DNA from: Methanoregulaceae archaeon
GTDB lineage: Archaea > Halobacteriota > Methanomicrobia > Methanomicrobiales > Methanospirillaceae
Reading direction: 5' to 3'
NCBI GenBank assembly: GCA_021371995.1
Contig: JAJFVA010000002.1
Span: 1 to 32,678 of the forward strand
DNA: 32,678 bases
The notes under the pieces are model-generated. The model did no database searches and was not told the origin of the DNA. It was given only the letters and a program-made list of their open reading frames with translations. The stretch's first letter is position 1, and each line of letters starts with the position of its first letter. Both the position numbers and the translations under genes were made by a program. This document shows, in pieces, positions 47 through 30,147 of this stretch.

Positions 47-991
47 TTAACATCTAAATCGCCATAGTGTCTGCGGATCCTCCGGATTCTCTATTCTTTG
101 ACAGACCCTGTAAGAAAGATAATACGTTGCATCCCCCACGATGGTATCGTCAGCATGAAACCGGATAGGATCCGGATCATGGTCAAAATCGTAATCCTCG
201 GTGAGATGGAGCCAGAATGATCCAAAGTGATCGCTCCTTGTTCCCTCATTATCTTCTTCCCATAATGAGATTTCTGTGTCCGCACGGATCTGGATAGGAT
301 TGATATTTATCGTTCTCCTGGATCTATTTCCGCTATCCCTCATCCAGTATGGCCCCCACACGGTAATGCCATTCACTTTGAGGAACGCATGATCTTTCCA
401 TTCCTGGGCATTCCTGCATTCCAGTTCGCGAAGTTGAAGGCAGTACGGGGTTAAGGGCAACTGGTCATCCGGATGTACATAGATATCAAAATACAGCCTG
501 TAATGCTTATCATACCGGCCATACCCGCTTCCATCTGCATGGTTGGGTAAATCAACCATGCGTGAATCTGCAACTCCCGGTGCCCTTGTCATCCTCCGAT
601 CATCTGCCGTAGTTAAACCACGATCGTATGTCCCGATAACCCGGCCAATTGTGCCTCCGGAACTTGCTCTTGCAACTCTCTCCACCACTGAGGATATGGG
701 CGGAGAACCATCTGATGATCCGGTTGCAGTCACAAGATTGATGTCGACTCCCCCGGTACAGTCGTCATACTTGTCTCCAGGATCATCTTCTCCAACACGA
801 ATTTCAATTTTCCTGGTTGCCACGACTTCCCGGTCTATCCTTACAGTTTCACCACTTCGTATCGGTTGATCCGGGCACCAGCAACCAACCTGATCGTCAT
901 CTTCGTCAATCCTCCATGTGACAAATGCCTCTTCCTTCTGTTCTCCGGTTCGTGTCCTGATACATTCAAGTAGATTTAATCGTATTAACAT
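47..991 (-). CDS. Unrecognised protein with a duplicated beta-rich module
   Basis: I do not recognise this 314-residue protein. There is no signal peptide or membrane segment, so it is probably cytoplasmic. It has two similar modules, at about residues 3-88 and 184-262. Each opens with an L-x-L-x3-EC pattern (LNLLEC near 5-10, LRELEC near 187-192), continues with a charged stretch and an AF(V/L)-type strand, and ends in an acidic run (GEDDPGDKYDD near 67-77; EEDNEGTRSDHFG near 245-257). Such acidic loops between predicted strands resemble C2-like calcium-binding sandwiches, but that is inference. A linker of about 95 residues separates the modules. The start overlaps the last bases of the upstream gene by 7 bases, so the two are probably co-translated. 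Base composition is more AT-rich than neighbouring argG. Confidence 0.7.
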   Translation of the reverse strand: MLIRLNLLECIRTRTGEQKEEAFVTWRIDEDDDQVGCWCPDQPIRSGETVRIDREVVATRKIEIRVGEDDPGDKYDDCTGGVDINLVTATGSSDGSPPISSVVERVARASSGGTIGRVIGTYDRGLTTADDRRMTRAPGVADSRMVDLPNHADGSGYGRYDKHYRLYFDIYVHPDDQLPLTPYCLQLRELECRNAQEWKDHAFLKVNGITVWGPYWMRDSGNRSRRTININPIQIRADTEISLWEEDNEGTRSDHFGSFWLHLTEDYDFDHDPDPIRFHADDTIVGDATYYLSYRVCQRIENPEDPQTLWRFRC

Positions 992-1299
992 TTCTTTTCC
1001 GCCTCTCTGAACTCTGGGAATGCCAGAATTCCCCGGTATTCAACATTCATCTGATAAGGAACCTCTAATCCCGTTATGGTTGATAAGTGTTTGCCAGAAA
1101 AGAGCGCGACTGTATCCCCTTTTGCCCAGCAAATGACGCTGTTTCCATTGACAGGAGCATAATCAGGGGCAAAGGATCTGAATTTCTCCTGGAGTGTACT
1201 ACCGTTGTTGTCATCATCTTTGCAGCAGGAACCGGGAGAAAACCTGAACCTTATTTCTTCACTTTCGTTATCCTCGATTATTCGATCAGGTTCCTGCAT
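985..1299 (-). CDS. Hypothetical protein, possibly N-terminally truncated
   Basis: The 104-residue frame is unrecognised. It is rich in acidic residues at the N terminus (IIEDNESEE), has a CC pair near residue 25, and ends EKKC. It overlaps the start of the next gene downstream by 7 bases. The ATG at 1299 has no convincing ribosome binding site. The same frame is open for a further 45 codons upstream but is interrupted by a single TGA at 1324-1326, so the present start may mark a broken gene rather than a true N terminus. No function can be assigned. Confidence 0.5.
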   Translation of the reverse strand: MQEPDRIIEDNESEEIRFRFSPGSCCKDDDNNGSTLQEKFRSFAPDYAPVNGNSVICWAKGDTVALFSGKHLSTITGLEVPYQMNVEYRGILAFPEFREAEKKC

Positions 1300-3217: not shown

Positions 3218-5677
3218 ATGAAAAAAATGACTGCACTGATCCTGGCATTCATCGTAGCCTTCTCCTTTACCGGCTATGTGAGTGGTGCGACATCCGGAAC
3301 CAGTTCCGGAATGTCCTCGATTACTCTGAAAGGCAGTTCGATCACCTTTGAGGGAAGCGGAGCGACTGTCGATGGCACAACCATAACCATCACATCGGCA
3401 GGCACGTACACCATTACCGGCACGCTCCGGGACGGGCAGATACGGGTGGACACAGAGGATGAGGAAACGGTAAAACTCGTCCTGAACGGAGCAACCATTG
3501 CCTGTTCCACAAGTGCTCCTATCTATGTCGTCAACGCAGAGAAAACGGTGATCACCCTTGCAGAAGGAACGAAAAATTATGTCACTGACGGAGCTTCGTA
3601 CATCGCTGAAGATGCCGAATCAGATGAACCTGATGCAGCAATTTTCAGTAATGACGATCTCACGATCAACGGCGATGGTTCACTTACCGTCACGGCAAAC
3701 TATAATCACGGTATTGCAGGCAAGGACGATCTCAAGATCAACGGCGGACAAATTACCGTAACTTCGGTAAATGATGGTATCAGGGGAAGAGACTCTGTCA
3801 CCGTCAAGGACGGGACTATCACCGTGAAAGCAGGCGGGGACGGAATCCAGTCCAACAACGATGAGGATGCTGAAAAAGGATATGTCTCCATCGAGGGCGG
3901 CACGATCATCATTACCGCCGGAGAAGATGGTATCCAGGCGGAAACCAGCATGAGTGTCAGCGCTGGCGAAATCACGGTCACATCAGGGGGAGGCAGCAGC
4001 ACGGGCAGCACCTCGTACACCTGGGGCCCGCAGGGCATGGAACATTCCGCCACCGACAGTGATACCGATAGCGCCAAGGGGCTGAAAGCCGGGGTAGCCC
4101 TTATTATCTCAGGGGGGACCATCACCATCGATTCAGCTGACGATTCGATCCACTCGAATGACAGTATGACCATTAATGGCGGAACCATTACGGCCTCCTC
4201 AGGGGATGACGGCATGCATTCAGATTCCACCTTGGAGATGAACGGGGGAGACATACGCATTACGAAATCCTACGAGGGGATGGAGAGTGCCGCAATTACC
4301 CTGAATGCCGGAACGATTCATATCGCTGCCAGCGATGACGGGATAAACGCTGTCAGCAGCGATGACGCTTCAGCGGTAAATGGCCGGCCGGACCAGAATG
4401 CCTTCACTGCCACCGGTACCAATTACCTGCATGTCAACGGCGGGTATATCGTGATCGATGCTAACGGAGACGGGATCGATGTCAACGGGCCGATCGAGAT
4501 GACCGGAGGCACGGTAATCGTCAACGGGCCGACAAACAACGGCAATGGTGCTCTGGATTACCTCGGCACCTTCAAAATGACCGGGGGGTATCTCATTGCA
4601 GCAGGCAGTTCCGGCATGGCGCAGGCACCCGGCACCTCATCGACACAGTATTCGGTGATGCTGACATTTTCATCAGCCCAGCCGGCAGGCACGATGGTCC
4701 ACATCGAATCAGAAGATGGCGCAGACATTCTCACCTTCGTGCCGACAAAGACCTACCAATCTGTCGTGTTTAGTTCGCAAGACCTGGAAAAGAGCGGGAC
4801 CTACGTTGTATACACTGGAGGCACGTCGACAGGCACAGTGGTCGACGGCCTCTACTCCGGTGGAACCTATACCGCCGGCACTAAAGTAACCAGCTTCACC
4901 ATATCAGGTATCGTAACGAATGCCGGTTCGTCAAACAACCAGAATATGGGCACCAATCCGGGTACGAACCCGGGCACCAATCCCCGGGAAAGAGCGGGGA
5001 TTACAGGGGTCCCTACCACTTCACCGACAAAGGCTACTTCCGGGACGGGGACACTCTACGTGACTTCTACCCCGAGGGGGGCCAGTGTCTACCTTGACAG
5101 CGTGTATAAAGGGGTTACGCCGGTCATCATCACCGGGGTCTTGAGCGGCACACACCAGATTAAAGTAACCAGCACCGGATACCAGGATTATTCCACCGGT
5201 ATATCGGTGACGGCCGGAACGATGGCACGGGTGGCTGCATCACTGCAGGCTCAGTCAGGGTCGACCTCCGCTCCCACGACAAATCCAACCACTGCACCGA
5301 CAAATGCACCGTCCGGCACGCAGACGGGGACACTCTCGATCACCTCCACCCCAAAAGGGGCAAGCGTCTACCTTGACGGTTCATTCAGGGGACTCTCCCC
5401 CCTCACCCTGACGGGTGTGTCTGACGGCTCACACGAGCTCAGGCTGACCAGGTCAGGGTATCAGGACTACCTCACCAGCGTGACAGTGACTGGGGGGAAG
5501 ACCACCACGGTCGCAGCACCACTCACTATTATTGAAGGAGGCTCATCGCAGTTTACCAGCCTGCTCCGGACAAATCTCCCCGCCGGTTCCCTGATTTCCC
5601 GGATTACCTCAGCGTCATCGGTACTGACTGAAGAACGCAGCGCCTTGCTATGGTCACTGTATCACGGGTTCGGATGA
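3218..5677 (+). CDS. Secreted beta-helix carbohydrate-binding-domain protein (Cthe_2159-like) with two PEGA domains
   Basis: This 819-residue exported protein starts with a signal peptide (residues 1-24, ending VSGA). Residues of about 40-570 are short repeated strands of the pattern GGTITI..GDDGI typical of right-handed beta-helices. The family signature is like Cthe_2159, known in Clostridium thermocellum for binding polysaccharide. A Gly/Asn/Pro/Thr linker leads to two PEGA domains, about 608-677 and 701-769, each with an STP(R/K)GASVYLD core. The last 45 residues are unlike either domain and there is no C-terminal anchor. The ATG is supported by AAGGAG at 3202-3207. The stop codon overlaps the start of the VTC gene as ATGA, so it heads a translationally coupled operon. 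A cell-surface binding or matrix role is inferred; the true ligand is unknown. Confidence 0.85.
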   Translation: MKKMTALILAFIVAFSFTGYVSGATSGTSSGMSSITLKGSSITFEGSGATVDGTTITITSAGTYTITGTLRDGQIRVDTEDEETVKLVLNGATIACSTSAPIYVVNAEKTVITLAEGTKNYVTDGASYIAEDAESDEPDAAIFSNDDLTINGDGSLTVTANYNHGIAGKDDLKINGGQITVTSVNDGIRGRDSVTVKDGTITVKAGGDGIQSNNDEDAEKGYVSIEGGTIIITAGEDGIQAETSMSVSAGEITVTSGGGSSTGSTSYTWGPQGMEHSATDSDTDSAKGLKAGVALIISGGTITIDSADDSIHSNDSMTINGGTITASSGDDGMHSDSTLEMNGGDIRITKSYEGMESAAITLNAGTIHIAASDDGINAVSSDDASAVNGRPDQNAFTATGTNYLHVNGGYIVIDANGDGIDVNGPIEMTGGTVIVNGPTNNGNGALDYLGTFKMTGGYLIAAGSSGMAQAPGTSSTQYSVMLTFSSAQPAGTMVHIESEDGADILTFVPTKTYQSVVFSSQDLEKSGTYVVYTGGTSTGTVVDGLYSGGTYTAGTKVTSFTISGIVTNAGSSNNQNMGTNPGTNPGTNPRERAGITGVPTTSPTKATSGTGTLYVTSTPRGASVYLDSVYKGVTPVIITGVLSGTHQIKVTSTGYQDYSTGISVTAGTMARVAASLQAQSGSTSAPTTNPTTAPTNAPSGTQTGTLSITSTPKGASVYLDGSFRGLSPLTLTGVSDGSHELRLTRSGYQDYLTSVTVTGGKTTTVAAPLTIIEGGSSQFTSLLRTNLPAGSLISRITSASSVLTEERSALLWSLYHGFG

Positions 5678-6501
5678 ATATGGAGATCGGAACGCTGGAG
5701 ACTGCCATACGGGATAATCCGGATGACACTTCCGCGCTGTCATCGGTAATCAGGGAATTTGAGAGTATCTCCCTTCCAGAGCTGGATGAAACAAAAGCCC
5801 GGCTCCTGACCCGGGTGGAGAGCAAGCACCTGATGACACTCGGGCAGTGCAGGGAACTCGTGCGGACACTTGCCGGCTCCTACAGGGTGCTCGAGATACA
5901 GGATGCCAGAATCGGGAGATATGAGACCATGTACTATGATACACCGTCGTTTCTTTCCTACCTCCAGCATCATAACAGGAAAGGCAACCGGTACAAACTG
6001 AGGCTCCGGCATTACGATACGTCGGATGAGACCTACCTCGAAGTAAAAAAGAAGAACAACAAGGGCTCCACGGAAAAAAGCCGTATCAGGACCTCGTGGT
6101 CTTCGTCCGGATTCTTACCAGACCAGGTGGAGTTCCTCAGGTCAGCATTTCCGTATGACTGCCGGTCATTCCATCCCGTTCTCTGGACCGTATACAACAG
6201 GTTCACCCTGGTATCCAAAACATCCCCCGAACGCATCACCCTGGACACCGGCATAACGTTTGGCGACGGGCAGAATGTGATCTCATATCCCGACCTCGTG
6301 ATCGGTGAGATCAAGTACGAAAAGGGGGTGAAGAACTCCCCGGCACTCCAGGCGCTTCATGGGATGAGCATCAGGAAGAGGGCTTTTTCCAAGTACTGTA
6401 TCGGGGTATCGCTCCTGTATTCCTGGCTGAAGCATAACCGGTTCAAGGAAAACCTGCTCTATGTCGCCAGACTGACGAAGGGAGGCGGGGTTCCATGCTG
6501 A
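5674..6501 (+). CDS. VTC-domain protein, polyphosphate-polymerase-like
   Basis: This 275-residue protein belongs to the VTC branch of the triphosphate tunnel (CYTH/TTM) superfamily, whose yeast member Vtc4 makes polyphosphate from ATP. Tunnel motifs are visible: RVESK (47-51), YYDT (87-90), the basic strand NRYKLRLR (105-112), LEVKKKNNKG (122-131) and GEIKYEKG near 211. There is no SPX domain or membrane segment, so it is a compact cytoplasmic enzyme. I chose the ATG at 5674 over the in-frame ATG at 5650 because it forms an ATGA overlap with the upstream stop. It overlaps the downstream membrane gene by 7 bases. The family and neighbours suggest a membrane-associated polymerase; polyphosphate as the product is not proven by sequence. 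Confidence 0.88.
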   Translation: MNMEIGTLETAIRDNPDDTSALSSVIREFESISLPELDETKARLLTRVESKHLMTLGQCRELVRTLAGSYRVLEIQDARIGRYETMYYDTPSFLSYLQHHNRKGNRYKLRLRHYDTSDETYLEVKKKNNKGSTEKSRIRTSWSSSGFLPDQVEFLRSAFPYDCRSFHPVLWTVYNRFTLVSKTSPERITLDTGITFGDGQNVISYPDLVIGEIKYEKGVKNSPALQALHGMSIRKRAFSKYCIGVSLLYSWLKHNRFKENLLYVARLTKGGGVPC

Positions 6502-7079
6502 ACTTGTCGCTTGGCCTCTTCTTTGCAGGATTCATCATAAACTTCCTGTCAGCGTTTGTCATCGTGCGGCTGGTATATTACCCGAGAGGAAAGTGCAACA
6601 ACTTTGCCTTCACGTTCCTTGCCTTCAACACGGTGATTTATTTCATCATGGGGCTGTTTACCAGCATCGAGTTGTCGATCGGGACAGGGTTTGGCCTGTT
6701 TGCGTTGTTCTCGATCCTCCGGTACAGGACCGAGACGGTCCCCATCCGCGAGATGACTTATCTCTTCGTGATGGCGGCGCTGCCCATCCTGAATTCGGTG
6801 CTCTGGGGATTGTCCGAGTACGGCAAGTTGCTGATCGTGGATCTCATGGTTATCATCACCCTCTGGATCCTTGACAGGGAGTGGGGATTTCACCGGTCAC
6901 AGTCCCAGATGGATGTGGTATACGAGAAGATAGAACTGATAAAAAAAGAGAAGAAGGAAGAGATGCTTGCGGATCTCAGGGAGAGGACCGGGCTTCTCGT
7001 CCAGGATTTTGAAGTGCTGGACATCAACTTCCTCCGGGACTGTGCCGACATCAGGATCACCTATTCAAGGAAGGGGTAG
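6495..7079 (+). CDS. DUF4956 membrane protein
   Basis: This 194-residue protein has four or five hydrophobic segments (about 4-29, 39-60, 64-78, 88-106 and 111-127) followed by a charged cytoplasmic tail with a lysine/glutamate-rich helix (about 140-165) and a small alpha/beta end. The conserved loop RYRTETVPIREMTYLF (76-91) is characteristic of DUF4956. In many bacteria DUF4956 genes sit next to VTC-domain genes and CotH or beta-helix surface proteins, the arrangement seen here. The 7-base overlap with the VTC gene implies coupled translation and perhaps a complex in which this protein anchors the polymerase at the membrane. Its biochemical role is unknown. Confidence 0.88.
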   Translation: MLNLSLGLFFAGFIINFLSAFVIVRLVYYPRGKCNNFAFTFLAFNTVIYFIMGLFTSIELSIGTGFGLFALFSILRYRTETVPIREMTYLFVMAALPILNSVLWGLSEYGKLLIVDLMVIITLWILDREWGFHRSQSQMDVVYEKIELIKKEKKEEMLADLRERTGLLVQDFEVLDINFLRDCADIRITYSRKG

Positions 7080-7384
7080 GAGATCTCATTTTTTTTGGAG
7101 GACATTCTCTCTCCCAGGGACTCCCGGATTTTCACGTAAGGTATATAGATCAGGTCTGGAAGATTGGATTTACATTCAAGATAACGAATACATTTTGGGG
7201 ATTCCCCTATCGAATATCGATTTTCTCGTGATAATTTCAATCGATTGCCGAAAAAGTCAGGGAGACAAGGATTGTAACAGGTTTCATTAAAGCAAACAGT
7301 ACCATCCTGCAATAGCCATTTTACGCATAAATCAGTTCTTTCAGGATTGTATTGGCATGATGCAGGATCTTCTGTTCCATCATC
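7061..7384 (-). other. In-frame cysteine-rich extension beyond the TAG stop of the caspase-like gene
   Basis: Immediately after the TAG at 7385-7387 the same frame stays open for 107 codons to a second TAG at 7061-7063. The first part looks protein-like: it holds seven cysteines in about 70 residues (for example SCQYNPERTDLC and VCFNETCYNPC), suggesting a disulfide-rich extracellular module. There is no ATG start near its beginning, only a TTG at 7312. It may be a C-terminal domain cut off by a nonsense mutation, a readthrough extension, or chance. The last 6 codons overlap the end of the DUF4956 gene on the opposite strand. Confidence 0.35.
7089..7096 (+). terminator. T8 tract after the VTC/DUF4956 operon
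   Basis: Eight consecutive T residues begin ten bases after the DUF4956 stop codon, typical of archaeal U-tract termination. No strong hairpin precedes it. Confidence 0.5.
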
Positions 7385-9184
7385 CTACAGAGTTCCCTGC
7401 CCGGTCATATATACCCAGTATCCCTTTGTTGGACACATGGTTTGAGTATCGCTGTGAATCCCTGTTCCTCCATTGATGATTGCCGCTTCGTATTTTTGAG
7501 ATGAAGCATCATATCCCCAGACGGTAGACCATTGATTCCTGACATTGGTTAATGCCTCTTTTACAGGGAGAGGAGTCTCTCCTGATATCCCGATTGCATT
7601 CCAGCCCGGATATACCTGTTTCAGTCCGTTTTCAGGATTATCCTCCAGTTTTAATTGAATTGTATTGGAATTAACGGAATAAATCCAGATCCCATCAGAT
7701 GGTCCAAGAATGTCAGTTGGCTGGATACGAACCCAGGCACTGCTCAGAGCAGTATATCGGAATTGAGAATGTTGATCTGATTCAATTCCGGAAAAGACGT
7801 AACCCGCCGTGTTATAACCTTCCTCTAATGTACCAGGTATGGAGATAAAATTCCACCCGGGATACAATTGGATTTTGGTCGCTTCTGGATCAGTAACATG
7901 AATCAGGTTGATTTTCTCGACAGAATTCATTTCCTGGCCGTTCCTGACAACCAAACGAATCGAATAATCCCCCGGTTTATCATACACATGTTCAATTGTT
8001 GATCCGGAGTAATCCTGGAATGCATCATTATTTATGTCCCAATACCATTCTGAAGGGTTCCCCTGAGAAGTATCTTTGAACTGCACTCGTAACGGGGCAC
8101 TGCCTGATACGGGGGAAGCAACGAATTCCGCTTTTAAATTTGACGACGTCGGAGTTGGTGTCGGTGATATGGTTCTTGTTGTCGGGATCGTAGAAGGGAC
8201 GGTTGTCGGTATAGTGGTAGGAACTGTTGTGGGTATGGTGGTAGGAACTGTTGTCGGTATAGTGGTAGGAACTGTTGTGGGTATGGTGGTTGGATATCCT
8301 AAAAATCTTATTCCAACATCATTTGATGTATCCCCATCGAAAATTTGAGGATTTGATGCGGATGATGTGAATTCTGTTGTTTTAAAACCTGCATAAGAAA
8401 ATACTTCTTCAGCAGAAATCCAATAATCATGATTTATATCTAAAGTTGGTGATTTAAAGCCTTCGACGATATAATAAGTAAACGCGCTGTTTTGTATACT
8501 ATCATAAGAAAATGATTCTTCATAATCGTTAGATGCCATTAAGACAACGAAATTTCTATTTTTAATATCTTTTTCATAATCAGAACCTATAAACTCATCA
8601 TTATTATTCGATGATGCGGACTTTACCATTCCCCCCGCATAACAAATATCGAAGATACAAACGATATTTTTTACATTGAGTTGTTCGAGCCAAATCTGAA
8701 TTTCATCATCACGAATATCATTTGAATATGAAGTTGGAAGAGAATCCTGAGGGCATAAATATTCATCCAGGTCATCATATTCATCATAAGGTGGGATATC
8801 TTCCGCTTGATCCCCATGACCTGTGAAATAAAAGATCACTGTGTCAGAAGGACCAACTCTTGATCTTAATGTTGATATTGCAGTTTGAATGCCGGATTTC
8901 GTTGCCTGACCATCGTAAAGAAAAACAAGGTGATCTGGCTCAATCTTACAATCGTTAATTAACATATTTTTCATATCAAAAGTGTCATCCCAGGAATATT
9001 TCAAGTTGTTATTTTGAAGAAATACATAGTGATCAACACCAGCAAGAATGGCCCAGTATTTCCCGCTTTCCTTTTCAATTTTAAAATTTTCATCCGAACC
9101 AATATCCGCAACTGAACCTGGTATTAAAAAAATTATGAATAGTATTATGAAAAGGAAAAATAATTTCCGCCCTATCATACACAT
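7385..9184 (-). CDS. Secreted caspase-fold (C14) peptidase with EF-hand-like loop and PKD domain
   Basis: This 599-residue exported protein has an N-terminal hydrophobic signal (residues 7-26). The caspase-like domain covers about 40-270, with the catalytic dyad visible as H123 in FYFTGHGDQ and C181 in FDICYAGGM. Inside its end is a DxNxDxx(I)xxxE loop (D249, N251, D253, E260), a good calcium-binding EF-hand/dockerin-type pattern. A TTIPTTVP linker follows (about 299-340), then a PKD domain (about 350-435) with the WDINNDAFQDYSG turn. A C-terminal region with two YPGWN motifs is typical of methanogen surface proteins. The gene is clearly more AT-rich than its neighbours, suggesting transfer or recent domain shuffling. 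The start could be the ATG at 9184 or 9178. Substrate is unknown. Confidence 0.88.
   Translation of the reverse strand: MCMIGRKLFFLFIILFIIFLIPGSVADIGSDENFKIEKESGKYWAILAGVDHYVFLQNNNLKYSWDDTFDMKNMLINDCKIEPDHLVFLYDGQATKSGIQTAISTLRSRVGPSDTVIFYFTGHGDQAEDIPPYDEYDDLDEYLCPQDSLPTSYSNDIRDDEIQIWLEQLNVKNIVCIFDICYAGGMVKSASSNNNDEFIGSDYEKDIKNRNFVVLMASNDYEESFSYDSIQNSAFTYYIVEGFKSPTLDINHDYWISAEEVFSYAGFKTTEFTSSASNPQIFDGDTSNDVGIRFLGYPTTIPTTVPTTIPTTVPTTIPTTVPTTIPTTVPSTIPTTRTISPTPTPTSSNLKAEFVASPVSGSAPLRVQFKDTSQGNPSEWYWDINNDAFQDYSGSTIEHVYDKPGDYSIRLVVRNGQEMNSVEKINLIHVTDPEATKIQLYPGWNFISIPGTLEEGYNTAGYVFSGIESDQHSQFRYTALSSAWVRIQPTDILGPSDGIWIYSVNSNTIQLKLEDNPENGLKQVYPGWNAIGISGETPLPVKEALTNVRNQWSTVWGYDASSQKYEAAIINGGTGIHSDTQTMCPTKGYWVYMTGQGTL
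8177..8293. repeat. 24-bp tandem repeat inside the caspase-like gene
   Basis: About five copies of a 24-base unit (plus strand GTTGTCGGTATAGTGGTAGG..) begin at 8177, 8201, 8225, 8249 and 8273. They encode TTIPTTVP. The units at 8201 and 8249 are identical, and those at 8225 and 8273 match apart from the tail. The array therefore has a 48-base second-order period, as expected from recent slippage or unequal recombination. Confidence 0.9.
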
Positions 9185-9210: not shown

Positions 9211-9587
9211 TACTAAATTATTTTGGAATTTTTTTTACGTCATGCAACCAGGAACCACGGGAAATAAGGTCAATAATGGGGCAGGGAGGAGTGGGGGTGT
9301 TTGACAGGAGCGGATTTGTGAGCGATGATTTGTTGATTCTACGATGGGCATTGAGCACAACGTCATACCCCCGATCATCATTCTCCTGTTATCATCAGCC
9401 GGGAAATTGTCTGATGGGTATAATCCAAAATAAAACGATACGCCGCATGGTTCAATGATTCAGATATCCGGAATGAACCGGACCGTATCATCTTTTTATA
9501 AAAGGCTCTTTTAAAAGTTCGGGATACCATGGAAGGCCTTCCGTTCTGACACTTTTTTTTGCGGGGGGGTTCAACAGAGCCCATATC
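9211..9587. other. Gene-free AT-rich spacer
   Basis: The full spacer 9185-9702 between the divergent caspase-like and small secreted-protein genes has no convincing coding sequence. It contains T-rich runs at 9227-9237 and 9551-9558. A symmetric pair of TATA-like palindromes (TTTTTATAAAAGG and CTTTTAAAAG, 9492-9515) could be a promoter or structured element on either strand. Confidence 0.5.
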
Positions 9588-9595
9588 TTTATATA
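9588..9595 (+). promoter_or_regulatory. TATA box (TTTATATA)
   Basis: A near-consensus archaeal TATA box lies about 110 bases before the ATG at 9703. The predicted start near 9618 would give a leader of roughly 85 bases ending in a strong GGAGG. Confidence 0.55.
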
Positions 9596-9702
9596 GTGAT
9601 ATCAGGAAAGGTTCATCTGCCTTAATCCTGGGACTTGTTGGATACGACAGATAGTGCGACGATAAGCTACATTCTATCATCGGTGTCCGGAGGCAAATAA
9701 CG

Positions 9703-10089
9703 ATGAGAAAAAAAATATTCACCCTGGTCCTCATTGTAATTGTATGGGGTATGATGGGGATTATTCCCCCGGTGTCTGCACTACCGCCAGAAGAAGATTT
9801 GTTACCGTTATATGAGGGTATTTCGGATAACCGTATCGGAACTATTGTGATTGACCCGGCGAATGCTCATTACGCCATCCTGGCGAACGTTGGTGAACAA
9901 AAGGGAGCATTGTATTATGAGCTGAAGGCTCACAACCCATCCGGAGTCCCCGTGACCATAACATGGGGAATGATAAAAGCAAACAAGAATGGATATCTCC
10001 GTTGCCAGGAAACCTTCGACTCCATTACGTTAACCTGGATTAAAAATTACGGCCTTAACGGAGCGATCTATAGCGTCAGACCTTTATAA
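9703..10089 (+). CDS. Small secreted protein of unknown function
   Basis: The 128-residue product has a clear signal peptide (residues 1-26, MRKKIF then a hydrophobic core ending VSALP). The mature part of about 100 residues is mostly predicted beta strand (IGTIVID, HYAILANVG, GALYYELKAHN, PVTITWG, SITLTW) with a single cysteine, consistent with a small extracellular beta sandwich. I do not recognise the family. The ATG is well supported by GGAGG at 9689-9693, and a TATA box lies at 9588-9595. It is a single-gene unit converging on carB, with a shared palindromic terminator. Confidence 0.75.
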   Translation: MRKKIFTLVLIVIVWGMMGIIPPVSALPPEEDLLPLYEGISDNRIGTIVIDPANAHYAILANVGEQKGALYYELKAHNPSGVPVTITWGMIKANKNGYLRCQETFDSITLTWIKNYGLNGAIYSVRPL

Positions 10090-26271: not shown

Positions 26272-27162
26272 TCAGTATTTCTTTTTCGATGAAAGCCCGG
26301 ACAGGAGAATGACTGCTCCGACTGCTCCAAGAATAGTGAATGCACCAAGCGGTATTCCTGCTGCTGAAGATTTTTCATCTTCCTGACCTGTCGATGATCC
26401 TCCCGCCCGGTTGTAGCAGTACATGGGGTTTTTGTTCGCATCATAGTTGCAGAGGACAGGGGTTCCCCCGCAGAGCGTTAATCCGACCTGGCTCGCGGTT
26501 GCCGCATCAAGGCAGGTGCAGTCACCAGAGCATGATGTCAGGGCAGACGCACTCCCCGATGTTCCCGATGTGGCAGGAAGTGCGGTCCGCTGTGCCAGTG
26601 CATAGCAGTACATACCTCTTCCAGATGCATCGTAATTGCAGAGGACAGGAGATCCACTGCAGAGCGGGAGTCCGAGACTGTCAGCGGCGTCAGGCAGGAT
26701 ACAGCGGCAGTCAGGACCACAGCCGGAGAGGACAATGGCACTTCCGGTAGCGGGAGTTGTTGTCTGGGACGTTGTGGTGAGTGAAGGGGTCGGTGTCAGA
26801 GTCCTCCCAGAGGCTGTAGGCAGGGTGGTTGTTATCGGGATGGTATCAGAGTAACAGTACATGTTCTCGCCAAGCTGGTTTATACCGCAGATTACTCCAC
26901 TCATATTTGAATAACGGTAGCATGGGACTCTCCCCTGGTTATTGGCATTTTTCTCGCCCATGCACGTGCATCCCGAAGAGCAAGGGGGATACGTCGTATT
27001 GAAAGCATATCCCTGAATTGTATCCGTTGTCGTGTCGCTTGAATAATATCCAATGCCGATCACTCCGATTGTCCCATTGTCAGCAACTACGGATACGGGA
27101 AATGCACCGAAGAAAAGTACCGCCATGAGGGTAATAACCACACCATGTTTTACTCTCGTCAC
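26272..27162 (-). CDS. Surface protein with three six-cysteine repeats and a C-terminal anchor
   Basis: The 296-residue exported protein has a signal peptide (about 1-27, ending VVADN) and a C-terminal membrane helix followed by SSKKKY, so it is anchored outside the cell. Between them are three cysteine modules, near residues 61-104, 147-185 and 211-249. The second and third share the exact spacing CX3CXCX13CX6CX10C and end in MYCY. The first has 10 residues instead of 6 between cysteines four and five. Thr/Ser/Pro linkers separate them. I do not recognise the module; it probably forms three disulfides. The GTG start at 27162 has GGAGG eight bases upstream, and TTTAAATA lies at 27204-27211. 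Confidence 0.8.
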   Translation of the reverse strand: MTRVKHGVVITLMAVLFFGAFPVSVVADNGTIGVIGIGYYSSDTTTDTIQGYAFNTTYPPCSSGCTCMGEKNANNQGRVPCYRYSNMSGVICGINQLGENMYCYSDTIPITTTLPTASGRTLTPTPSLTTTSQTTTPATGSAIVLSGCGPDCRCILPDAADSLGLPLCSGSPVLCNYDASGRGMYCYALAQRTALPATSGTSGSASALTSCSGDCTCLDAATASQVGLTLCGGTPVLCNYDANKNPMYCYNRAGGSSTGQEDEKSSAAGIPLGAFTILGAVGAVILLSGLSSKKKY

Positions 27163-28823: not shown

Positions 28824-29954
28824 TCAGAGGGCATTTCGTATTCCCAGGTACATCTCTTCCGGCACAGGATTGAGTGGGATCATCGTCCATGCGTAGATAA
28901 GCGCAAGGACGGCAACAAGGACAATGATTCCTATAAACAGGATTTTATTCTTTGGAAAAACCCTCTCAAATCCAATCAGGGCAAAAGGAGCCATCGGTAG
29001 CATGTATCTGCTAACATCGCCATGGGTTACGAGCGATATGAGCGCGAGGGAGACTCCGGTAAAAAGGGCCATCTCCTTCTCTCCTCTCTCCCAGAGCGAG
29101 ATAGCGGCGATAGCGTATATCACGATAAGAATCCCATAGAGTTCCCTGAAGTAGGAATCCGAAAAGATAACCATGATGCGGAACGGTTCGTGGATATTAC
29201 CCCCGTTCACCGCGAAATAGGCAAAAAAATCTCCGAACGATATGAAATAATACGTGAAAAGCAGCAGTACACTGGCTGGGATCAACAATGACAGAAGGAA
29301 ATTTTTCGGATTCAGTTGCTTCTTCCAAATAAGGGATGCAAGCAGCACAGGGAAGAGGAGAATACCGAATATCCTGGTGAACGTGGCAAGGATGGCTGCA
29401 ATCACGAAATAGGGAATCTGGTCCTTCTTGAGAAAATAGATCGCAGCTAAACAAAGAAATATGAATGCCGGTTCGCTTGCCCCTACATTTCGGTAGAGGA
29501 ACCATCGCAGGGGGAAGAAGGCGAAGAAGAGTGTTAACAGGAGAGGATGTGTCGCCAGCTCAAACTCTTTTACGATTTGGTAAAACATTACCGCAGCGGC
29601 AGCCGCAAAAAGGATTGTTGCGATTATCATCGCTTCAAATACACCGAAGGGCGAGAGGAGCAGAATTGCGAAAGGATAGAGGGGAAAATGCGCGGCATAA
29701 TAACTGGCCCACAGGCCTGATGCAGCATAGAGGGGGCTCTCGGGAGTATACATTGTTTGTGAGACCACTACATACAAAGGGCCGTCCCAGAAACGATATA
29801 CTGCCTGCATCCCGGTCTGCACGAAGTATATCGAGAATACATTCTCAATATTGAGGAGAAATGGCATGAGCGCCAGAAGTGATGAGAGCCCCACCACAGA
29901 GATGATGACAAGATAGGGGAGTAGTGCAGAGGACTTCAGGGTCTCATCTGTCAT
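28824..29954 (-). CDS. Polytopic GT-C-type glycosyltransferase (PIG-V-like)
   Basis: The protein of about 376 residues is a multipass membrane protein with roughly ten hydrophobic segments. The first extracytoplasmic loop carries the FWDGPLY motif, and a later loop carries RNVGASEPAFIF. These resemble the WDG and SES-type motifs of PIG-V-like mannosyltransferases in the GT-C class, which use polyprenyl-phosphate sugars on the outer face. A role in lipid or glycan assembly is inferred. I prefer the ATG at 29954 (MTDETLK) because GCTTATTTATC at about 29983-29990 would place transcription start between it and the in-frame ATG at 29975. It is transcribed alone. Confidence 0.72.
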   Translation of the reverse strand: MTDETLKSSALLPYLVIISVVGLSSLLALMPFLLNIENVFSIYFVQTGMQAVYRFWDGPLYVVVSQTMYTPESPLYAASGLWASYYAAHFPLYPFAILLLSPFGVFEAMIIATILFAAAAAVMFYQIVKEFELATHPLLLTLFFAFFPLRWFLYRNVGASEPAFIFLCLAAIYFLKKDQIPYFVIAAILATFTRIFGILLFPVLLASLIWKKQLNPKNFLLSLLIPASVLLLFTYYFISFGDFFAYFAVNGGNIHEPFRIMVIFSDSYFRELYGILIVIYAIAAISLWERGEKEMALFTGVSLALISLVTHGDVSRYMLPMAPFALIGFERVFPKNKILFIGIIVLVAVLALIYAWTMIPLNPVPEEMYLGIRNAL

Positions 29955-30147
29955 TGTTTCCCTGTTCAATTTCATTAAAGATAAATAAGCCTCAATCTCA
30001 AAGGATTTCGGAATTTTTGAGTGGCCAGGCAGTAGTTATGGACATGGTAACGGAATGCAGAACTAAACGGATGAACCGCAGTGGAAAAGCAGTCCGCACC
30101 CTTTCCCAGAATGTCGAAATCGTCCTGAAAACTACAGCGGATAATGA

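Follow-up and report, generated by a model that had tools for sequence, protein, structure and literature searches.

Genes in the order CotH-PPP-DUF4956-DUF4832 have been described as accessory genes of Gram-positive clusters for the exopolysaccharide Pel (PMC7112168). In Streptococcus intermedius, deletions of the DUF4956-like gene and of the CotH gene reduced aggregation and changed the amount of Pel, and the trio was stated not to be found outside Pel loci (PMC12345266). The yeast VTC complex is inactivated by changes at R264, R266 and E426 (PMC9911596). In prokaryotes, proteins with a VTC domain carry the annotation polyphosphate polymerase, and DUF4956 is a family with no assigned function. 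The locus considered here is an archaeal operon encoding a secreted protein, a VTC-type enzyme and a DUF4956 membrane protein (genes 1, 2 and 3; Table 1). It lies on a stretch of 32,678 nucleotides, called the window below, from Methanoregulaceae archaeon (assembly GCA_021371995.1, contig JAJFVA010000002.1, positions 1 to 32,678 of the forward strand). Contrary to the statement on Pel loci, archaeal, Chloroflexota and Deinococcus loci hold these families together with no Pel genes in view.

The VTC and DUF4956 genes are strictly linked. Among 197 genomes sampled evenly across Halobacteriota, VTC was found in 17, and DUF4956 in all 17 plus one genome in which it is truncated. Cthe_2159, the family of gene 1, occurred in 12 genomes, all with VTC; CotH, a kinase family whose members are secreted in pair-bearing archaea, occurred in 11, eight of which also have VTC (p 7e-8, uncorrected for phylogeny). 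Every one of the 17 VTC genomes has Cthe_2159 or CotH (hypergeometric p 8e-22 by genome), and all six Cthe_2159 genera are VTC genera (p 1e-6), again uncorrected for phylogeny. Genomes in which the partner gene is not linked to the pair (e.g., G024, G044 and G037) obey this rule too. Of 61 relatives, 14 carry an intact pair, with VTC and DUF4956 adjacent in every case; one additional genome shows nothing but a VTC fragment, at the edge of a contig, and fragments of DUF4956 were seen in two. When 14 named control genomes were searched, VTC and DUF4956 matched the same three, each with one partner; Methanosarcina acetivorans and Corynebacterium glutamicum are among these, both with CotH.

A truncated DUF4956 (6989-7393 of locus L038, genome G039) belongs to a genome without VTC, CotH or Cthe_2159 and is likely the remnant of a lost operon. 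A second cluster in another genome (G170:C1:1667692-1670237) has a VTC remnant with three stop codons beside open CotH and DUF4956 frames, the polymerase having decayed while the partner and membrane genes stay open. The idea that CotH of pair-less genomes is intracellular was rejected, at least one such protein carrying a signal peptide.

The pairing extends well beyond Halobacteriota. A DUF4956 scan of 84,980 species genomes gave at least 513 relatives, and neighbourhoods were counted at the best 80 named loci. VTC lies directly upstream of DUF4956 in 75 of the 80 (Chloroflexota, Bacteroidota, Acidobacteriota and archaea), and CotH or Cthe_2159 is near the pair in 52. DUF2490, likely an outer-membrane barrel to judge from signal peptides and aromatic C-termini, occurs at 30 of 41 Bacteroidota-group loci and at none of the 39 others. 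On Alphaproteobacterial plasmids DUF4956-VTC is accompanied by a phytase-like esterase and once also by a phosphate (Pi) transporter. One Deinococcus plasmid carries an acid phosphatase and a phn transporter beside the pair, and another has CotH-VTC-DUF4956. Two-component regulators adjoin the pair in 8 loci. The original prediction had placed the three families side by side in bacteria, often with CotH, and was to be abandoned if they never co-occurred in other genomes; tested across genomes, they are found together in bacteria and archaea alike, including with CotH.

Other features of these loci may be recorded. In Chloroflexota (L083, L091, L093, L099, L100 and L117), response regulator and histidine kinase family genes, found in a pooled scan, follow Cthe_2159-VTC-DUF4956, which suggests that its expression is controlled by a signal. 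Two small families (about 135-190 amino acids; e.g., L107:5180-5584 and L107:5584-6162) with no clear Pfam family stand just upstream of VTC in Bacteroidota, in 12 and 19 loci. A VTC-DUF4956 pair on a Candidatus Heimdallarchaeota B3_Heim contig (L130) is nearly identical on the tree to that of a Bacteroidota contig (L129), and is probably mis-binned rather than an Asgard gene.

The secreted partner has been exchanged repeatedly. On a concatenated VTC and DUF4956 tree the Cthe_2159/CotH label changes at least six times among 48 labelled loci, a count that is a guide, the tree being a quick one with many poorly supported forks. The window operon and its sister were placed among CotH-bearing Methanomicrobiales, with Cthe_2159 occupying the position of CotH in the relatives; no CotH was detected in the archaeon's own genome (98.6% complete). 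Because of these repeated changes, the core looks like the polymerase and the membrane protein, with the secreted protein as an exchangeable client. Strict mutual exclusion of CotH and Cthe_2159 held in the first 61 genomes and was given up when three of the 17 VTC genomes of the wider set, as well as Methanogenium marinum, broke it.

The only Pfam domain of gene 2 is VTC (PF09359, E 9.2e-27); as for genes 1 and 3, the match lies over the curated cut-off. The protein has no hydrophobic helix and is predicted to be cytosolic. Neither an SPX domain nor a fused C-terminal membrane domain, both traits of eukaryotic VTC, was found in it. An AlphaFold2 model from a 69-sequence alignment has eight tunnel strands (mean predicted local distance difference test score, pLDDT, 91.9). 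In a fold search of the PDB, tunnel domains of yeast Vtc proteins took the first 13 places (3g3r, E 5.4e-13), ahead of YgiF and of archaeal and plant tunnel enzymes, and at the sequence level the family profile reaches yeast Vtc4 (E 9.4e-5) and Vtc2. In the profile alignment R110, R112, E212 and K240 align with Vtc4 R264, R266, E426 and K458 (chain positions converted by an offset of 185, which fits all aligned residues), and K51 corresponds to K200, as judged from the alignment and from family conservation. Across the 69 family sequences, each catalytic residue is either invariant or conserved in at least 90%. K200 and K458 also matter in yeast. Vtc2 and Vtc3 are non-catalytic subunits of yeast VTC; since their tunnel domains also match by fold, fold alone is insufficient to call a polymerase. 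Taken with the residues, the model provides strong evidence that gene 2 encodes a working tunnel enzyme of the polymerase type, as expected from the intact triphosphate-tunnel active site claimed earlier, and suggests that it may synthesize polyphosphate. A role as a substitute for PPK1 was rejected, since 11 of the 14 relatives that have the pair possess PPK1 as well. Viral relatives were not found with a single-sequence query.

Gene 3 matches DUF4956 over its full length (PF16316, E 4.5e-51; 173.4 bits against a cut-off of 30.6). Its model (mean pLDDT 87) has five hydrophobic helices and, as a tail, a beta-alpha-beta-beta domain. Positive charges on alternate loops predict an N-out/C-in topology, which places the conserved arginines R76 and R78 at the end of helix 3 that faces the cytosol. 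The tail is predicted to be cytosolic and ACT-like; among ACT proteins, TyrA, aspartate kinase and AcuB matched it in Foldseek weakly and without significance. Homology with the yeast VTC membrane domain was rejected, neither fold nor sequence supporting it. A 2025 paper calls SIR_1592, the DUF4956-like protein of S. intermedius, MgtC-like; for DUF4956 an MgtC/SapB-like identity was not supported, the hhalign probability being 0.4% (with a small MgtC alignment of five sequences) and Pfam giving no hit to MgtC at a threshold as loose as E 10.

Gene 1 combines a Cthe_2159 domain (PF14262, E 1.3e-103) with two PEGA stretches (PF08308, E 6.8e-34), and matches Cthe_2159 of Clostridium thermocellum in the PDB (4peu, E 1.1e-51). 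A Sec-like signal peptide is present; no C-terminal membrane anchor was found in the product. The mature protein has an isoelectric point of about 4.05. PF14262 is named as a carbohydrate-binding family, and the description of gene 1 as polysaccharide-binding-like derives from family membership only.

The best reading of this module, still a tentative one, is that a polyphosphate polymerase is coupled to the membrane and its product handed to a secreted client outside the cell. VTC and DUF4956 would form a near-obligate module in which a cytosolic polymerase of the Vtc4 kind is docked on its own membrane protein. The enzyme would lengthen polyphosphate from adenosine triphosphate (ATP) inside its tunnel, and DUF4956, with its conserved helix 3 arginines, would anchor it and pass the chain outward, or gate or control its passage across the membrane. 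The secreted partner would then bind or use the exported polyanion. In the window this partner would be the acidic, Asp-rich beta-helix/PEGA protein, perhaps acting through Ca2+ bridging in a surface matrix, and in close relatives the secreted kinase CotH. Polyphosphate as the product is suggested by what is known of the family; that it leaves through DUF4956 and is bound by gene 1 is put forward as a hypothesis. The phosphate genes near the pair in some bacteria are counted in favour of the reading as a whole. A much wider proposal is distinctly doubtful: that the pair is a widespread prokaryotic machine for polyphosphate secretion, its membrane part convergent with the yeast VTC channel and its extracellular clients interchangeable, with a Ca2+-bridged matrix polymer for Cthe_2159 and possibly a phosphate donor for secreted CotH.

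Several observations weigh against a polymerase that exports polyphosphate. A search of the literature found no reported activity for any prokaryotic VTC. The genome also encodes PPK1 and PPK2, so the cell is independent of the VTC enzyme for polyphosphate as such. In S. intermedius no aggregation defect was reported on deletion of the polymerase-domain gene (PMC12345266). CotH occurs in three archaeal genomes that lack the pair. The beta-helix of gene 1 is itself acidic (net charge -41) and rich in Asp, so polyphosphate binding would need cations. By fold, the DUF4956 model matches neither the yeast VTC membrane domain nor any solved structure significantly (best E 0.024); a channel or anchor role is thus proposed because the protein is almost always paired with the polymerase, and by analogy, not homology, with yeast. 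Of the original prediction, the operon, the active site, the fold and the co-occurrence have stood; a polyphosphate product, its crossing of the membrane and its binding by gene 1 are proposed.

Polyphosphate may instead be made at the membrane and kept inside, as a regulated store or phosphate sensor in which the ACT-like domain senses a ligand and the secreted gene is merely co-regulated, perhaps in response to a stress such as that of phosphate or calcium. The cytosolic position of that domain, the two-component regulators and the phosphate uptake genes near some bacterial pairs are all consistent with such a store. It seems unlikely, however, leaving unexplained a secreted companion in 17 of 17 archaeal genomes, even unlinked, and the likely outer-membrane barrel DUF2490 in Bacteroidota. 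An improbable alternative, too, is that VTC takes part in the assembly of a surface polymer, either by hydrolysing triphosphates or by polymerizing or transferring phosphate onto another acceptor (a lipid, a protein or a surface glycan), its product not being polyphosphate. Other tunnel enzymes are triphosphatases or cyclases, Cthe_2159 bears a carbohydrate-binding family name, and the Pel clusters and the effects of DUF4956-like and CotH deletions on Pel amount and aggregation point the same way (PMC7112168; PMC12345266). However, the best fold matches are polymerases rather than triphosphatases, no Pel genes were found next to either the window operon or the Deinococcus locus that was annotated, and the families commonest beside the pair do not include polysaccharide synthases. 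That exported polyphosphate serves as the phosphate donor for secreted CotH, the Cthe_2159 version being another use of the polymer, fits the scarcity of ATP expected outside the cell, the kinase nature of the secreted CotH and its tracking of the pair, but is very unlikely, given that one pair-less CotH, the only one of three clearly read, has a signal peptide too, that no CotH is known to use polyphosphate and that genomes with Cthe_2159 only are left unexplained.

If a membrane-coupled, exporting polymerase is the true reading, DUF4956 would acquire a role, and polyphosphate outside the cell, in matrices and biofilms, could be approached genetically. Near-obligate pairing, conserved catalytic residues and interchangeable partners make it testable whether bacteria and archaea possess a dedicated route, separate from PPK1, that makes and exports polyphosphate.

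The coordinates of the operon are collected in Table 1. The coupling of three same-strand genes by overlaps of 4 and 7 bases, the exported beta-helix/PEGA character of the first product and the DUF4956 membrane nature of the third, all claimed earlier from the letters, are borne out by the reading frames, the signal peptide, the Pfam matches and the five predicted helices. The first in-frame ATG of gene 2 is at 5650 (open reading frame 5650-6501); the ATG at 5674 creates the 4-base overlap. A Methanolinea locus has CotH as its first gene and the identical -4/-7 overlap pattern. The nearest named relatives are Methanomicrobiales, the closest being Euryarchaeota archaeon ADurb.BinA087.

Table 1. 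Features of the secreted protein-VTC-DUF4956 operon (window positions)
Feature	Position	Strand	Evidence
Gene 1, 819-aa secreted protein of the Cthe_2159 beta-helix family with two PEGA domains	3218..5677	+	Pfam; PDB 4peu match
Cthe_2159 (PF14262) beta-helix domain, aa 52-332 of gene 1	3371..4213	+	Pfam; weaker second stretch 4208-4531
Best PEGA domain, aa 704-770 of gene 1	5327..5527	+	Pfam; other PEGA stretch directly before
ATGA stop/start overlap, gene 1/gene 2	5674..5677	+	Open reading frames
Gene 2, 275-aa triphosphate-tunnel enzyme of the VTC type (putative polyphosphate polymerase)	5674..6501	+	Pfam, model, alignment
VTC domain PF09359 (gene 2)	5812..6420	+	Pfam
7-base overlap, gene 2/gene 3	6495..6501	+	Open reading frames; found again in most archaeal relatives
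Gene 3, DUF4956 membrane protein, 194 aa	6495..7079	+	Pfam, model

For the most part, the other genes of the window belong to the ordinary core genome (argG, carAB, an XPD-like helicase, an adenylosuccinate lyase-family lyase and an ammonium transporter). Convergent to the operon, 7385-9184 (-) encodes an extracellular metacaspase-like archaeal protein, which is secreted and combines a caspase-like domain (Peptidase_C14) with a TTVP-repeat linker and a PKD domain. Open reading frames without a Pfam match (E 0.001) are 47-991 (-) and 985-1299 (-), which overlap by 7 bases, 9378-9734 (-), 26272-27162 (-) and 28824-29975 (-).

Compared with the yeast VTC complex (Vtc4/Vtc3/Vtc1; PDB 3g3q, 7ytj, 8i6v), the archaeal enzyme has the tunnel-domain fold and catalytic residues in common, and in both the polymerase is tied to a membrane part. 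In contrast to yeast, the archaeal enzyme lacks the SPX domain, and its membrane part is not fused to it: a separate, unrelated-looking DUF4956 protein of five helices takes that place. The beta-helix domain of gene 1 is shared with Cthe_2159 of C. thermocellum (PDB 4peu/4phb), whereas the archaeal protein is extended by two PEGA domains plus a short tail and is encoded by the first gene of a VTC-DUF4956 operon. In Clostridium perfringens, NELoc-2 (VTC, 'tubulin/FtsZ' membrane genes, CotH, GT2; PMC2879425) repeats the association of VTC and a membrane-protein gene with CotH, but is a bacterial genomic island with a glycosyltransferase; its membrane genes are compared here by their 'tubulin/FtsZ' name. 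Among the Gram-positive Pel accessory genes (PMC7112168; SIR_1592-1594, PMC12345266), the polymerase and membrane families adjoin a secreted partner, as in the window, and an ACT tail has been reported for SIR_1592, as for the ACT-like tail of DUF4956 here; the window differs in having Cthe_2159/PEGA in the place of CotH and no Pel genes nearby. The association of CotH, VTC and DUF4956 in Gram-positive Pel loci is already published; new here are its Pel-free distribution in archaea, the swap of partner and the strict linkage of the pair.

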